Below are positions 3,956-11,494 of a stretch of DNA of 64,000 nucleotides, one piece after another. Source of the DNA: an uncultured Flavobacteriales bacterium. GTDB taxonomy: Bacteria > Bacteroidota > Bacteroidia > CAIKAF01. The notes under the pieces were generated by a model. It was not told where the DNA came from and made no database searches. It saw nothing but the letters and a program-made list of their open reading frames with translations. Both the position numbers and the translations under genes were made by a program. How positions within the stretch are numbered: position 1 is the first letter of the stretch; every line of letters starts with the position of its first letter. The stretch is from the NCBI GenBank assembly GCA_903825395.1, contig CAIKAF010000015.1:124001-188000 (forward strand). Direction: 5' to 3'.

Positions 3956-4732
3956 ATGAAAAAAAAAATATTCAGCCTTTGGATAGGCTTATGGATATCT
4001 TCTGCCCTTATCGGCCAAAGTACCCGTATCAGTACCTTCGAAAACATCGGATGGTACAATACCTTTCTTACCGTAAAAGCCTCGAATACCATTTCTTTTT
4101 TGGCAGAATACCAATGCCGCAGAGATCAATTTATTTCCCATTGGCAACAAAGCCTGCTGCGCCTTGGGGTAAATGTTCAAGTAAAACCCGGTTTGAATCT
4201 GCGTGCCGGCTATGGTTGGATTGAAACTTTCCCATATGGCGATATTCCCATTAATGGCTATGGTAAAGATTTCACAGAACATAGAATTTACCAGGCGTTG
4301 CAGTTTATCCATCCGGAGTTCGGTATCGATATTACCCACCGACTTATGTTGGAACAACGTTTCGTCGGCGCCTATAAAAATGAACTCTCCACCGCCGAAG
4401 ATGATTTCCCTTTGCTGCACCGGGTTCGCTACTTACTCAAGTTTCAAATTCCACTGATTAAAAAAAATCAGCAGCAGCAACTCTATCTAAACATCTTCGA
4501 TGAGCTGTTTATTGGTTTTGGAGAGCAGGTCAAAGCCAATATATTCGACCAAAATAGAATTGCCTGTCTGCTGGGTTACGCCTTCAATTCCCATTTTTCA
4601 TTGGAGGCCGGTTTTTTGAATCAAACCATTCAGTTTGGCAGGCAAATCAATGGTAAAAATGTATTTCAATACAACAATGGATTTGCCATAAATGCCATAG
4701 TTCAATTGGACGCCCGAAAGCTGAACAAATAA
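3956..4732 (+). CDS. DUF2490 domain-containing outer-membrane-type protein
   Basis: This is a 258-residue protein with an N-terminal signal peptide (MKKKIFSLWIGLWISSALIGQ). The rest alternates polar and aromatic residues like an outer-membrane beta barrel. Recognisable DUF2490 pieces are GLNLRAGYGWIETFPYG, HRIYQALQF, ITHRLMLEQRFVG and FPLLHRVRYLLKFQIPL. The family has no proven function. It starts 11 bp after the SulP gene and probably ends the carbon-uptake operon. It may be a porin-like partner, but that is only inference from position. Confidence 0.8.
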   Translation: MKKKIFSLWIGLWISSALIGQSTRISTFENIGWYNTFLTVKASNTISFLAEYQCRRDQFISHWQQSLLRLGVNVQVKPGLNLRAGYGWIETFPYGDIPINGYGKDFTEHRIYQALQFIHPEFGIDITHRLMLEQRFVGAYKNELSTAEDDFPLLHRVRYLLKFQIPLIKKNQQQQLYLNIFDELFIGFGEQVKANIFDQNRIACLLGYAFNSHFSLEAGFLNQTIQFGRQINGKNVFQYNNGFAINAIVQLDARKLNK

Positions 4733-4780
4733 TTACATCTGATTCAATCGCCTTTTTTTTTTGGGGGGGGATAATTTAAG

Positions 4781-4921
4781 GGCGGCATACGGGCTTTCAC
4801 CGGTAGGACGCACCTACAGGTGGCGGGGCCAGCGGGTTTGCGGGGGCTCCCAAGGTCGCCTCCGCACCTCGCGGCCCCGGCACCTGTAGGTTTGCGCGCT
4901 ACCCGGCTCAATCCCTGCCGC
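4781..4921 (+). repeat. R1: GC-rich intergenic hairpin element
   Basis: One of eight related elements. It begins GGCGGC, then CGGGCTTTCACCGGTAG, and ends CTCAATCCCTGCCGC. The left arm (4813-4830) and right arm (4873-4890) are complementary at 17 of 18 positions. Between them is the shared core with GGCTCCCAAGGTCGCCTCCGC-like sequence (about 4842-4865). It lies between the 3' ends of the DUF2490 gene and hicB. A T10G8 run precedes it at about 4753-4770. Confidence 0.85.
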
Positions 4922-5204
4922 AAGCGCCTCACAAAAACAAATCCCCTCAAAACATGACCTTTTTCATTTTTTTGGCCATTGCAATCTGCGACCTTTGATC
5001 TGTGATTGTTGTTTATTACCGCAAAGGCCGCGAAGGGAGCCGCAACGTTCACAGAGATTGGGGTTGAAAAAGAGCCTGCTCGCTTTTACTACATCCCCTT
5101 TGCGCCCTTTGCGCCGACATGGGGTGCTCTGTGGTAAAAAACGGGCGTTTAGGCTTCGAGGGCAGTTTTTTACCGCAAAGTTTCACCAAGGATTTACCGT
5201 AAAT

Positions 5205-5600
5205 TTATTCCATAACGAGATGTATATCTGCTAGTTCCTTGCCGATGCCTTGAATACCTCTGATTATTTTATCTGTTTGTTTAGAAGAAGGATGTTTTTT
5301 CCCTTGGACGTATTGAGACAAAAGCGTTGGATTCATTCCGATTCTCTTTGCCAAGAAATTCGCATTCAAAACCTTGTAGTATTTAAAAAACTGTTGTAAA
5401 TCCAAATTAAGCTTAAGATTTTCAGCGGTTACTTCGTAGCCCAATTCTTCATAAGCCAAGTTTAGTGCTTCAATTAAATTTGAATAAAGCTCCGGAATAT
5501 CTTTACCCGTTGTGAAAACACTCATATCGTTGGTGTATGAGGAATAGCCCGTTGCTGTTTTTTCAACCGTGATGTCTATTTTTTTCTTTAGATTTTTCAT
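5205..5600 (-). CDS. hicB: HicB-like antitoxin with C-terminal helix-turn-helix
   Basis: A 131-residue protein. Residues ~1-65 have the HicB fold pattern (degraded RNase-H-like: DITVEKTATGYSSYTNDMSVFTTGKDIPELYSNLIEALNLAYEE). Residues ~75-125 form an XRE-type helix-turn-helix (NANFLAKRIGMNPTLLSQYVQGKKHPS). HicB neutralises HicA and usually represses its own operon through this DNA-binding part. It follows hicA with a 3 bp gap, the usual toxin-first order. The pair lies inside a disrupted unit of repeat array 1, so it probably arrived as a small module. Confidence 0.87.
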   Translation of the reverse strand: MKNLKKKIDITVEKTATGYSSYTNDMSVFTTGKDIPELYSNLIEALNLAYEELGYEVTAENLKLNLDLQQFFKYYKVLNANFLAKRIGMNPTLLSQYVQGKKHPSSKQTDKIIRGIQGIGKELADIHLVME

Positions 5601-5603
5601 GGC

Positions 5604-5792
5604 TCAAATTTTTATTCCTGCTTTCTTAAATAGTTTTTTCTGCAATCCTTTACCTAATTCTTGGCTTCCGTGATTTGGAAAGACAATAATCCCATCTTTA
5701 GATTCATGCTTGAGTTTAATGTGCGACCCATTTTGTGAAACTGAATACCATCCATCTTTCAGAAGTAATCGTAACGCTTCAGAACATTTCAC
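5604..5792 (-). CDS. hicA: HicA-type mRNA interferase toxin
   Basis: A 62-residue protein with the compact HicA/YcfA double-stranded-RNA-binding fold. The catalytic histidine is in the NGSHIKLKH motif (His24). GIIVFPNHGSQELGKGLQKKLFKKAGI is the usual C-terminal half. Known HicA toxins cleave mRNA and are held in check by HicB. The frame opens with GTG at 5792 and no in-frame ATG would keep the first helix, so GTG is the best start. Length is normal and the key residue is present, so the toxin looks intact. Confidence 0.87.
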   Translation of the reverse strand: MKCSEALRLLLKDGWYSVSQNGSHIKLKHESKDGIIVFPNHGSQELGKGLQKKLFKKAGIKI

Positions 5793-6311
5793 AAATAAAG
5801 GTAAATAATTATTTACTTTAATGCCAGTTTCCTGTCTATTTTTTGATTGATGGAGCTTGGGGTTGGAAGAAAGCCTACTCGTTTTTACGACATCCCCTTT
5901 GCGCCCTTTGCGCCGACATGGGGTGCTTAGTGGTAAAAAACTGCGTTAATGTTTTGAATACCAGTATTTTACCGAAAAGGCCGCAAAGGGAGCCGCAACG
6001 TTCACAGAGGTTGGGGTTGAATGAAAGCCTGCTCGCTTTTACTACATCTACTTTGCGCCCTTTGCGCCGACATGGGGTGCTTAGTGGTAAAAAACTGCGT
6101 TAATGCTTGAATGCCAGTATTTTACAGCAAAGGCCGCGAAGGGAGCCGCAACGTTCACAGAGGTTGGGGTTGAAAAAGACCCTGCTCGCTTTTACTACAT
6201 CTCCTTTGCACCCTTTGCGCCGACATGGGGTGCTCTGTGGTAAAAAAAACGGTTTAAGCCTGAACGTGGATTTAAATGACCCATGGTAATGGACACCGTT
6301 TTTTAAAAATG

Positions 6312-6350: not shown

Positions 6351-7190
6351 ATGAAATGCATTCTTTCCATTCTTTTGGCTTCGTACGCCTTAACTCTTGC
6401 AGCTCAGAATGTGGGCATAGGCGTCCTTGCCCCACAATCCCGACTTGAAATCAAAGGACAGGGGAATTCCGCAAACACCTCCGGATTGAACGTAACCAAC
6501 AACCAAGGCAACTCAGGCTTGTTCGTCAACGACGCATTGCAGGTAGGCATTCAAAATACCAATCCCAACGCATCGGCAGTGCTGGACATTCAATCCACCC
6601 AAGCCGGAGTTTTGATTCCGCGCATGACCAATGCCCAAATGCTGGCTATTGTGGCGCCGGCCACCGGCTTGCTCATATTTAATTCTGACAATCAGCAATT
6701 TCGGTATTGGAATGGCAGCGCCTGGGTAGGATTAATTTCATCCGTCACCGGCAACCAAGGGTCGGCCGGAGCCATGAACCTACTGTATGCTGATGAAAGC
6801 ACGGTAACCAACATCAACGTTTCCTACAATCCTTGCGCAACGGGAACCAGCAGCGGCAATATCCACAGCTATGCCCTGCCGGCCAATTCGTATTCCAGAA
6901 TCTTGGCCGAAGCGGAAGGCTATTTTGAAATTGGAGCCAACGGCGGGAATTTTAATTCAGCCTCAGTCACCATGGCTTTGCCTGGTGGAAACAGCCGCTC
7001 AACCCAAGCCAAGCGTTCCGTTACCGGCGGAGGGACAGGCGACACCAGCTGGCATTTCCCGTTTAAAGTTTCGGCTTCCGGTCCAAGCCAAGCCGGGGGC
7101 AACATCGTGCTGAGCGGCAACCTTTCGCTGGGCGGTTGCACCGGCGGCCGAATTGTGGTTACCTCTTTTCGAGTGTATGGGGTGCAATAA
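6351..7190 (+). CDS. Secreted protein with LIPRMT-type repeat domain
   Basis: A 279-residue protein with signal peptide MKCILSILLASYALTLAAQ. The next section has NVGIGVLAPQSRLEIKG, then a block widespread in Bacteroidota secreted proteins (SAVLDIQSTQAGVLIPRMTNAQ, ATGLLIFNSDNQQFRYWNGSAW). Such blocks resemble phage tail-fibre and adhesin head sequences, but the function is unknown. Residues ~140-279 are rich in Gly, Ser and Asn and probably form a beta-sandwich. There is no T9SS tail. It shares the LIPRMT block with the gene at 9714-10901, so the two look like diverged relatives within the same repeat-bounded block. Confidence 0.7.
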   Translation: MKCILSILLASYALTLAAQNVGIGVLAPQSRLEIKGQGNSANTSGLNVTNNQGNSGLFVNDALQVGIQNTNPNASAVLDIQSTQAGVLIPRMTNAQMLAIVAPATGLLIFNSDNQQFRYWNGSAWVGLISSVTGNQGSAGAMNLLYADESTVTNINVSYNPCATGTSSGNIHSYALPANSYSRILAEAEGYFEIGANGGNFNSASVTMALPGGNSRSTQAKRSVTGGGTGDTSWHFPFKVSASGPSQAGGNIVLSGNLSLGGCTGGRIVVTSFRVYGVQ

Positions 7191-7243: not shown

Positions 7244-9331
7244 CTAGTCCTGAACAATTAGTCTTTGGGTGCTTTTCCCGTTTGAAGAAATAAATTCAAC
7301 GAAATAAAGTCCAGATGGATAAGGGAAATCCAATGTCAGGTTTGCATCTGAATCGTTGAAATAACGTTCAAGGAGTTGCTTACCCATCACATCAAATACC
7401 AAAATTCGGGTTTCTACATTGACGTCTTCCCTCCAAAAATGAACTTTGCTCGTGGCTGGATTTGGATACATATGCACGGATAGCCCCCCAGCAAAAGCAT
7501 CAAAACCAGAAGTTGGAGTAAATACGATGCAATCAGAGGTATCGGAACAGCCGTTCTCGGTAACAATTAGAGCAAAACTACCTTGGCTTACTGGAGAATA
7601 CGATGATTGAGTTCCCAAGTTTCCAGAAAAATCAGGACATCTTACCCATAGGAAGTTTGCATTTGGATTTTGGTTGTTGGCGCTGAAGGTTAAACTATCT
7701 GGCGAGGCCGAAACCGAAGCATCTACTGACACTGCGCCAATCAAAACGGACGCAATGGAGCTGTCTCCATTTGAATCAACCACCGTCACAGTATAAGGCC
7801 CTGGACATAATCCGCTGGCCGTATCTGAATTCCCACCGGCTGGACTCCAAGTATAGGAAAAGGGAGCTGTGCCACCAAATACAGAGGCAACGGCCGTCCC
7901 GGTGCACAACGACGCACACGAAGCGGTAAAACTAGATTGTACACTAAGGGGAATGACACTGCATAAAAATGAAATACTCCCTCCACTGCTTTCGGTGCCT
8001 CCGGTTGATTCAATTCCATTGCATGCGGTGCTGCTACCAATGGCCATAAAGGTCGCCGTTCCGGGACCAACCACTCCTCCCGATTGCCAAGGCCAACATG
8101 AAGCATCTTGGTCGGTAAATTTCAGGAAGAAAATCTCCTCCGTCCCTGCTCCTGAATTCCCGGCACCCAGATAACCTGCAACTCCATATCCGCCATCTGA
8201 AGTACGGAAAATAGAGCGACCCACATTGTAATCGGCTAAATTTGACGAATTTCCACCACTTCCGTACAGAGTAGAATTAAACATTCTATCCCAGAGCGGC
8301 AATCCGGCACTGCTAAATTTTACCACATACAAATCATACCAAGTATTGGCAATGGGCGCCGCGGGCAATATTACTCCCGTTGCCATTAAGCTGCCATCTT
8401 CCAATTCCATAACCGAATAACCTTCCTCACTATTGGTCATCCCGTAAGAAACATCCCAAAGCAACTGCCCCGTGGCCGACAACTTCACCATATAAATGTC
8501 CCATGTTGATTCAGCAACCATGTATTTTTTACCCAGCAATGCATACCCTCCATCCTGAGTTTGAATGATGCTTCTGGCATCGTCGTCCCTTGAGTTTTGT
8601 ACCCTAGTTGCCCAAACTTGATTGCCTAATTTATCCAATTTTACTGCGTAAACATCCGTTGAAGAAGTGGAGCCGGAACCCGTCCAATTGTAGGTACTAC
8701 CTGCCATAACATATCCGCTATCAGGACTTTGAACCAAACTGTAGCCAATATTTGCAACCCCACTCACTCCGCTCCTACGATCCCACAAAAGGCTTCCTTG
8801 GGCATCGGTCTTTACCAAATAAAATTGATTGGGACTTGCACCAAATGAGCTGGTTTGACCACACAAGGCAAATCCTCCGTTTTGATCCTGAATCAATGCC
8901 CAAGCACGGTCGTTCCCAGTCCCACCATAGGCCTTTGTCCATAGCAGTTGGCCATTCCCATCAAGGCGAATTAAATAAAAATCATCTCCGCCGTTCCCAA
9001 AAGAATTTGTCCATCCCGCCACAACATAGCCCCCATCGGCTGTTTGAACCACCCCTCTTCCAACGTCATTCCCAGATCCGCCAACGGTTTTTGTCCATTG
9101 AAGTTGCCCGGCAGGATTCAGTTTTACGATGTACACATCTGTACCCCCTGCTCCATAAGAATCCGTTTGCCCCACTAAAATAAAACCACCATCCAACGTC
9201 GCCGTCGCCTGGTGAGCTTGTTCGTTTCCTGGCCCTCCTCCATGCATAGCCCATTGATTTTGGGAAAAAAGGTTGGAAACTGAACAGCTAAATAGGGTAG
9301 CAAATAATGAGGAGAAATAAAAAAAACGCAT
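7244..9331 (-). CDS. T9SS-exported repeat protein with SprB-like domain
   Basis: About 695 residues. The start at 9331 (MRFFYFSSLFATLFSC...) gives a signal peptide and a ~25 nt leader after the -7 box at 9361-9368. An ATG at 9352 would leave almost no leader. Residues ~20-410 hold about seven propeller-like repeats of the form GGxGNDxGxxxxQTxDGGYxxxGxTxS...DxYxxKLDxxGxLxW. Next comes a SprB-like repeat (GTAPFSYTWSPAGGNSDTASGLCPGPYTVTVVDSNG). The last ~75 residues are a type A T9SS sorting domain (SVHMYPNPATSKVHF...PSGLYFVEFISSNGKSTQRLIV). The protein should be exported and attached to, or released from, the cell surface. Its exact role is unknown. Confidence 0.85.
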   Translation of the reverse strand: MRFFYFSSLFATLFSCSVSNLFSQNQWAMHGGGPGNEQAHQATATLDGGFILVGQTDSYGAGGTDVYIVKLNPAGQLQWTKTVGGSGNDVGRGVVQTADGGYVVAGWTNSFGNGGDDFYLIRLDGNGQLLWTKAYGGTGNDRAWALIQDQNGGFALCGQTSSFGASPNQFYLVKTDAQGSLLWDRRSGVSGVANIGYSLVQSPDSGYVMAGSTYNWTGSGSTSSTDVYAVKLDKLGNQVWATRVQNSRDDDARSIIQTQDGGYALLGKKYMVAESTWDIYMVKLSATGQLLWDVSYGMTNSEEGYSVMELEDGSLMATGVILPAAPIANTWYDLYVVKFSSAGLPLWDRMFNSTLYGSGGNSSNLADYNVGRSIFRTSDGGYGVAGYLGAGNSGAGTEEIFFLKFTDQDASCWPWQSGGVVGPGTATFMAIGSSTACNGIESTGGTESSGGSISFLCSVIPLSVQSSFTASCASLCTGTAVASVFGGTAPFSYTWSPAGGNSDTASGLCPGPYTVTVVDSNGDSSIASVLIGAVSVDASVSASPDSLTFSANNQNPNANFLWVRCPDFSGNLGTQSSYSPVSQGSFALIVTENGCSDTSDCIVFTPTSGFDAFAGGLSVHMYPNPATSKVHFWREDVNVETRILVFDVMGKQLLERYFNDSDANLTLDFPYPSGLYFVEFISSNGKSTQRLIVQD

Positions 9332-9360
9332 AGTAGCTGATTTACAATTCATTTGATAAT

Positions 9361-10901: not shown

Positions 10902-10934
10902 GCTAAAAAAACCGGTTCAGGCTTGGATGCCTGT

Positions 10935-11250
10935 TTTACCGCAAAGTTCTCAAAGGGAGCCGCAAGGTTCACAGAGGTTGGGGTTGGAAGAAAGCCTGCT
11001 CGCTTTTACTACATCCCCTTTGCGTCCTTTGCGCCGACATGGTGTGCTTCGTGGTAAAAAACTGCATTCAGGCTTGAATGATAGTTTTTTACCGCAAAGT
11101 TCTCAAAGGAAGCCGCAAGGTTCACAGAGGCTGGAGTTGAACGAAAGCCAAGTCGCTTTTACTACATTTCCTTTGCGTCCTTTGCGCCGACTTGGTGTGC
11201 TCTGTGGTAAAAAACAGGCGCTCAGGCGTATAGGTCGGTTTTTTACCACA
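10935..11250 (+). repeat. Array 2: two 153-bp repeat units plus a broken third
   Basis: Units start TTTACCGC at about 10935 and 11088. They end GTGGTAAAAAAC and are clearly the same family and orientation as array 1. A third unit opens with TTTACCAC at about 11242 (again 153-154 bp on) but breaks off after about ten bases, ~45 bp before R2. An open frame spanning 10888-11454 is repeat translation and not a gene. Confidence 0.85.
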
Positions 11251-11294
11251 GTCCAAAAACAAAAATCCACTACACCTTCCCCTCCCCCACGCCC

Positions 11295-11437
11295 GCGGCA
11301 GGGATTGAAGCAGGCAGCCCGCAAGACCAAACGGACCAGGAACGCGCGGCGCGGAGGCGACTTTAGGAGCCCACGCAAGCCCGCTGTTTCCCGCTCCGTT
11401 TGGACGCGGACTGGCGCTGAAAGCCCGTTTGCCGCCC
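11295..11437 (-). repeat. R2: GC-rich intergenic hairpin element, inverted
   Basis: Read on the minus strand it starts GGGGCGGC, CGGGCTTTC, and ends TTCAATCCCTGCCGC. The arms at 11327-11335 and 11395-11403 are perfect 9-base complements, with a further GGAA/TTCC pair inside. Its arm sequence is unrelated to that of the other copies. It lies between the 3' ends of the glycine-rich protein gene (and array 2) and dusB. Its orientation is opposite to R1. Confidence 0.85.
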
Positions 11438-11494
11438 CAAAAAATCAAACCTAAATTAAAAACCCTTCTCTGATTTTTAGAAACGAATCCCCCG

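Follow-up and report, generated by a model that had tools for sequence, protein, structure and literature searches.

A hicAB toxin-antitoxin operon within one unit of a palindromic repeat array

Introduction

In bacteria, toxin-antitoxin modules are found in the same plastic intergenic sites as REP sequences, and how the modules move is described as unelucidated (for a review, see PMC7167474). The ccd module of Escherichia coli O157:H7, for example, lies in the folA-apaH interval, an intergenic site that also holds REP sequences (PMC7167474). In Treponema, HicAB gene cassettes occur in integrons (PMC4909258).

The locus described here combines a hicAB pair with a tandem array of palindromic repeats. 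It belongs to a window of 64,000 nucleotides from an uncultured member of the Bacteroidota, the whole stretch of DNA that was analysed (G000:C15:124001-188000; G000 is the genome of the window, and G001 to G005 are other genomes of the genus). One unit of the array is interrupted by a compact operon whose flanks differ in every relative read, and both array and hicAB are missing at this locus from two congeners. The presence of hicAB in the repeat is most likely the result of an ordinary accidental insertion into harmless DNA. Because the target is a repeat of known sequence, the ends of the insertion are readable to within a few bases.

The Repeat Array and Its Interrupted Unit

The first array extends from 5011 to 6247 with a period of 153, and a second array of the same palindromic repeat is found at 10931-11214. 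Each unit is palindromic, about 129 bp long, and is followed by a spacer of 22-24 bp. Unit starts are located at 5011, 5164 (the broken unit), 5964, and 6117, and at 10931 and 11084 in the second array. With the nhmmer model, intact units 1 (5012-5141, model positions 1-129, 119.8 bits), 3 (5967-6094), and 4 (6120-6247) are delineated, together with the second-array units 10934-11061 and 11085-11214, which alignment identifies as the closest siblings of the right and left remnants of unit 2, respectively. A second dispersed repeat, GC-rich and about 150 bp long, is present in inverted orientation at 4780-4926 and 11290-11442; it also has many copies in G001, G003, and G005.

The original prediction placed a break inside one unit of the array, and this is confirmed. 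Indeed, unit 2 keeps the register of unit 1 (5011 + 153 = 5164) and matches its siblings up to 5192, after which the hicAB segment begins. The predicted unit start, 5169, lies a few bases inside the unit, the real opening being 5164, whereas the resumption expected near 5854 is right (5853). The left remnant (5164-5192) can be aligned with unit 11085, and its stretch past the shared AAAG (5179-5192) outscores 99.45% of 2000 random 14-mers of the window (P ~0.006). The 14 bases after 5192 do not match the unit in the same test (P ~0.9). The right remnant (5853-5940, unit positions 43-129, nhmmer 66.4 bits) is about 92% identical, over 5853-5942, to positions 44-133 of unit 10934 as extracted. 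With unit 11085 as the closest sibling of the left remnant and unit 10934 as that of the right, both remnants can be assigned to one sub-type of unit.

The inserted segment lies between the two remnants (5193-5852). Its length, 660 bp, is that predicted at the outset; the accompanying loss, estimated then at about 19 bp, is slightly smaller, since unit positions ~30-42 are absent (13-16 bp). On the left side, another alignment matches CCGCAAAGTTTCACCAAGGA to internal positions 31-50 in other units; the loss may therefore be smaller or replaced by a short overlap, and its exact size is uncertain. The best alignment shows the loss of a short piece of the unit and no duplication of it, and neither junction has a target duplication. 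The search for terminal inverted repeats of a transposon or MITE gave no inverted pair bracketing 5193-5852, and the insert contains no recombinase gene. By eye, neither attC nor a GTTRRRY cassette boundary is seen at 5150-5215 or 5830-5870. Rfam returns nothing for the window locus, nor for the attC-containing stretch of G005 described below. An assembly artefact is thought unlikely, since a misjoin should fall in an identical stretch of the repeat and not at a degenerate 29|43 break.

Alternatively, hicAB may have been there first, or may have arrived with the array, the repeats having then spread or expanded on both sides. Several ordinary genes are bracketed by arrays elsewhere in this genome (a LemA-like ORF at L100, methyltransferase-like ORFs at L101, as well as L104 and L114), and at L101 an end covering unit positions 1-46 faces a start covering 62-129, which shows that array ends can give rise to such pairs. 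However, the other arrays mostly end at unit positions ~46-54 and mostly start at ~62-85 according to nhmmer, and the 29|43 break therefore reads as one split unit, not as two array ends. Moreover, the two ends complement each other, keep the register, and belong to a single sub-type. This order of events is therefore considered unlikely.

The hicAB Operon

The insert holds an intact hicA-hicB operon with its operator, on the minus strand. The hicA gene (5604-5792) encodes a predicted toxin of 62 amino acids matching PF07927 (E=2.2e-18 over 57/62 residues); its start codon is GTG, vs. ATG in close relatives. The hicB-like ORF (5205-5600) encodes a putative antitoxin of 131 amino acids with a predicted HTH in its C-terminal part. 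The arrangement is bicistronic, hicA (5792-5604) and hicB (5600-5205) being 3 bp apart, and the palindromic operator region GTAAATAATTATTTAC (5797-5819) is conserved upstream of hicA in relatives. The HicB-like protein has no Pfam family above cut-off, HTH_3 matching at a sub-threshold 0.0018, and a sequence search of the PDB gives no HicB relative. In every close relative read, hicA has a homologue of this gene as its partner. The dN/dS of hicB with respect to the G005 copy is 0.05, a rough value since synonymous sites are already quite diverged, and this points to purifying selection on hicB between homologues. A phage origin of hicAB was considered and rejected, with only distant HicB matches in phages (~34% or less), none in viral contigs, and one weak plasmid match.

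The Locus and the Repeat Family in the Genus

The same locus was located in other genomes by synteny with DusB and the SulP-family gene as anchors, which worked for G001 and G005 and not for G003, in which DusB was not found. G001 and G005 both have the SulP-family gene adjacent to the next gene (window 6351-7190), a few hundred bp apart; the locus contains neither array nor hicAB, and the DUF2490 gene is missing from it. In G001, both gene flanks align to the window and 99 bp separate the aligned parts, vs. ~1.3 kb here. The DUF2490 gene that adjoins the array (window 3956-4732) is found in no other searched genome of the genus and is therefore unusable as a synteny anchor. The G005 SulP-family gene is a pseudogene with several stops (L084, G005:C13:62000-67600). 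The 702-aa gene at window 7244-9352 has a different place in the gene order of G001 and is not seen between its neighbours in G005.

G003, a sister species, is the sole other genome of the genus where the repeat was found. Its contig ends inside the upstream SulP-family gene, short of the array position; that hicB was not found in G003 thus says little, since the region of the locus is missing from its assembly. An uninterrupted unit at this place was accordingly seen neither in G003 nor in G001 and G005, where the locus has no repeats. BLAST gives 62 matches to the repeat in G000 and 45 in G003, and none in G001, G002, G004, or G005. In the stretches fetched from G000, the repeat forms a dispersed palindromic family with 108 merged unit hits at about 45 sites, covering 11.3 kb; the counts of arrays and of toxin-antitoxin loci in this genome rest on searches and on these fetched stretches and are not exhaustive. 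The family has the features of REP/BIME-like sequences: it is palindromic, both strands matching the model, it is intergenic, and it has many copies. Nothing specific to it was found in the literature. Flanks in G003 are mostly 97-98% identical to those in G000, and arrays occur at many of the same places, with copy number differing at several. Because orthologous arrays are common to both genomes at many sites, the family predates the G000/G003 split. Units with an extra ~45 bp in the linker are present in both genomes (L114, 1536-1711, and L154, 1988-2163). Beside another array (L121, G000:C25:69900-73100), a segment of about 1 kb at 538-1590 carries a 219-aa lipoprotein-like ORF and is absent at the same place in G003 (L149).

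Other Toxin-Antitoxin Loci and the Question of Targeting

The original prediction raised the possibility that the repeat was used as a target. No other repeat copy of this genome holds hicAB, G000 having one hicB only. Another module, vapBC (a PIN toxin and VapB NF050009), is located between units of another array (1859-2445 of L107, G000:C10:22700-27000) and provides a second case for comparison. vapBC takes the place of a spacer, whereas hicAB interrupts its unit near position 30. With no shared insertion point, no target duplication, and no recombinase, the targeting idea is not supported.

In G003, L140 (G003:C182) has the same left flank as L107, followed by units without vapBC, and no PIN-domain gene is detected in this genome. 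Equally, unequal crossing-over of the first unit with the third could have deleted vapBC from this array. The right flank is that of a different site, L120; L140 thus joins the left flank of L107 to the right flank of L120 through either a repeat-mediated rearrangement or a misassembly. With such crossing-over possible and the right flank rearranged, vapBC may have been gained in G000 or lost in G003.

The other modules found in G000, namely a second PIN gene (C24:575), parDE (C29:596), and a broken higB (C25:39122), have no repeat units nearby. Two of the five toxin-antitoxin loci found are thus in arrays; if arrays are assumed to make up ~5% of intergenic DNA, the post hoc P is ~0.02; when the hicAB case is left out, one of four remains (P ~0.19). 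This is a weak, post hoc enrichment, and targeting is possible but unsupported.

The arrays might still be preferred docking sites for toxin-antitoxin modules, either because a module lying between direct repeats loops out with one unit and re-enters another array by homologous recombination, or because an unknown enzyme targets the repeat. The position of vapBC and the vapBC-free units of G003 would agree with such a mechanism. Nevertheless, the two insertion points differ, the three remaining modules are outside arrays, the enrichment depends on the hicAB case itself, and the G003 array may reflect a deletion, all of which makes docking improbable. In its broader form, where recombination of flanking direct repeats would move modules between arrays and make these recurrent docking and exchange sites in this lineage, the proposal is likewise improbable. 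The vapBC pair makes the case mildly interesting and does not show targeting.

Relatives of the Operon

The nearest relative of the operon is the copy carried by G005, with 85% nucleotide and 92% amino acid identity; it matches 5215-5830 and nothing beyond. Three further relatives (L043, L044, and L045) are 75-78% identical at the nucleotide level and match about the same block (~5215-5830). The surroundings of the operon differ in every relative read, and the palindromic repeat is absent from all scanned loci of these relatives. Because the relatives share the operon alone, in other surroundings, hicAB moved as a compact unit. This part of the original prediction is supported, as homology stops at the operon ends, the flanks change each time, and the locus exists in G001 and G005 without hicAB.

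In the G005 copy, hicA is frameshifted. An attC-like palindrome comes right after hicB (CACCTAAC ... GTTAGGTG), with an RNA fold of -31.8 kcal/mol, and GTTAGAC precedes hicA, like an integron cassette boundary. This copy and its attC-like site adjoin a higBA-like pair on the opposite strand (L002, 1400-2130, G005:C12). A family-like attC pattern has a single match in G000, at C29, away from hicAB, and a decayed relative of the G005 attC follows parDE in G000. At that site (~600-960 of L164, G000:C29:1-2359), an IS-like terminal sequence is present upstream, at the contig start. An integron origin, in which hicAB would have arrived at a secondary site as a gene cassette and later lost attC, would fit the cassette-like G005 copy, the attC relative behind parDE, and the cassettes of Treponema integrons (PMC4909258), but it is very unlikely given that neither window junction shows attC or a GTTRRRY boundary and that no integron integrase is found above cut-off in any of the six genomes of the genus.

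Probable Insertion Into a Pre-existing Array

In the view we favor, with a probability of about 0.62, the repeat array was there first and is dispensable, and a compact hicAB operon entered one of its units by illegitimate insertion. This view is preferred because the 29|43 unit ends are complementary, in register, and closest to the same unit sub-type, because homology to relatives is confined to ~5215-5830, and because the G001 interval holds 99 bp vs. ~1.3 kb here. It is also preferred because orthologous arrays are common to G003 at many sites, because the dN/dS of HicB is 0.05, and because the junctions are devoid of flanking inverted repeats and of attC.

The mobile piece would be a free-standing hicAB operon (promoter/operator, hicA, and hicB) of ~620 bp, flanked on either side by some 20 bp of non-homologous DNA. 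Illegitimate, non-site-specific recombination may have placed it in a unit of the existing intergenic array, with ~13-16 bp lost. The array would have been present before hicAB and would have offered a neutral landing place between genes, and the pair may have been kept since its loss is costly (addiction). The flanking direct repeats would now permit deletion or shuffling of the segment by homologous recombination. That the insertion was illegitimate is deduced from the absence of signatures, and any old ones may since have decayed. Against it, the presence of another toxin-antitoxin pair in this repeat family suggests a degree of preference. Repeated insertion in arrays, if strain data revealed it, would point to a concrete route for chromosomal toxin-antitoxin movement; at present, the locus is one clean natural example.

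Comparison With Known Systems

The pair resembles Bacteroidota HicAB type II modules in having hicA first and hicB directly after, PF07927, a putative HTH antitoxin, and a palindromic operator, and in being a solitary operon with variable surroundings. It differs from them by its position inside a unit of a dispersed repeat and by the GTG start of hicA. With the HicAB integron cassettes of Treponema, it has in common that the same kind of module moves as a compact unit and that its nearest relative, in G005, has attC; unlike these cassettes, it lacks both attC and a cassette boundary, and no integron is present. As for ccd in folA-apaH (PMC7167474), the pair is inserted in plastic intergenic DNA able to hold palindromic repeats, but here it splits one unit of a tandem array. 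Finally, the repeat itself is close to REP/BIME repeats in being palindromic, intergenic, present in tens of copies, and arranged in tandem clusters of variable copy number, although its unit, ~129 bp plus a spacer with a period of 153, sets it apart.
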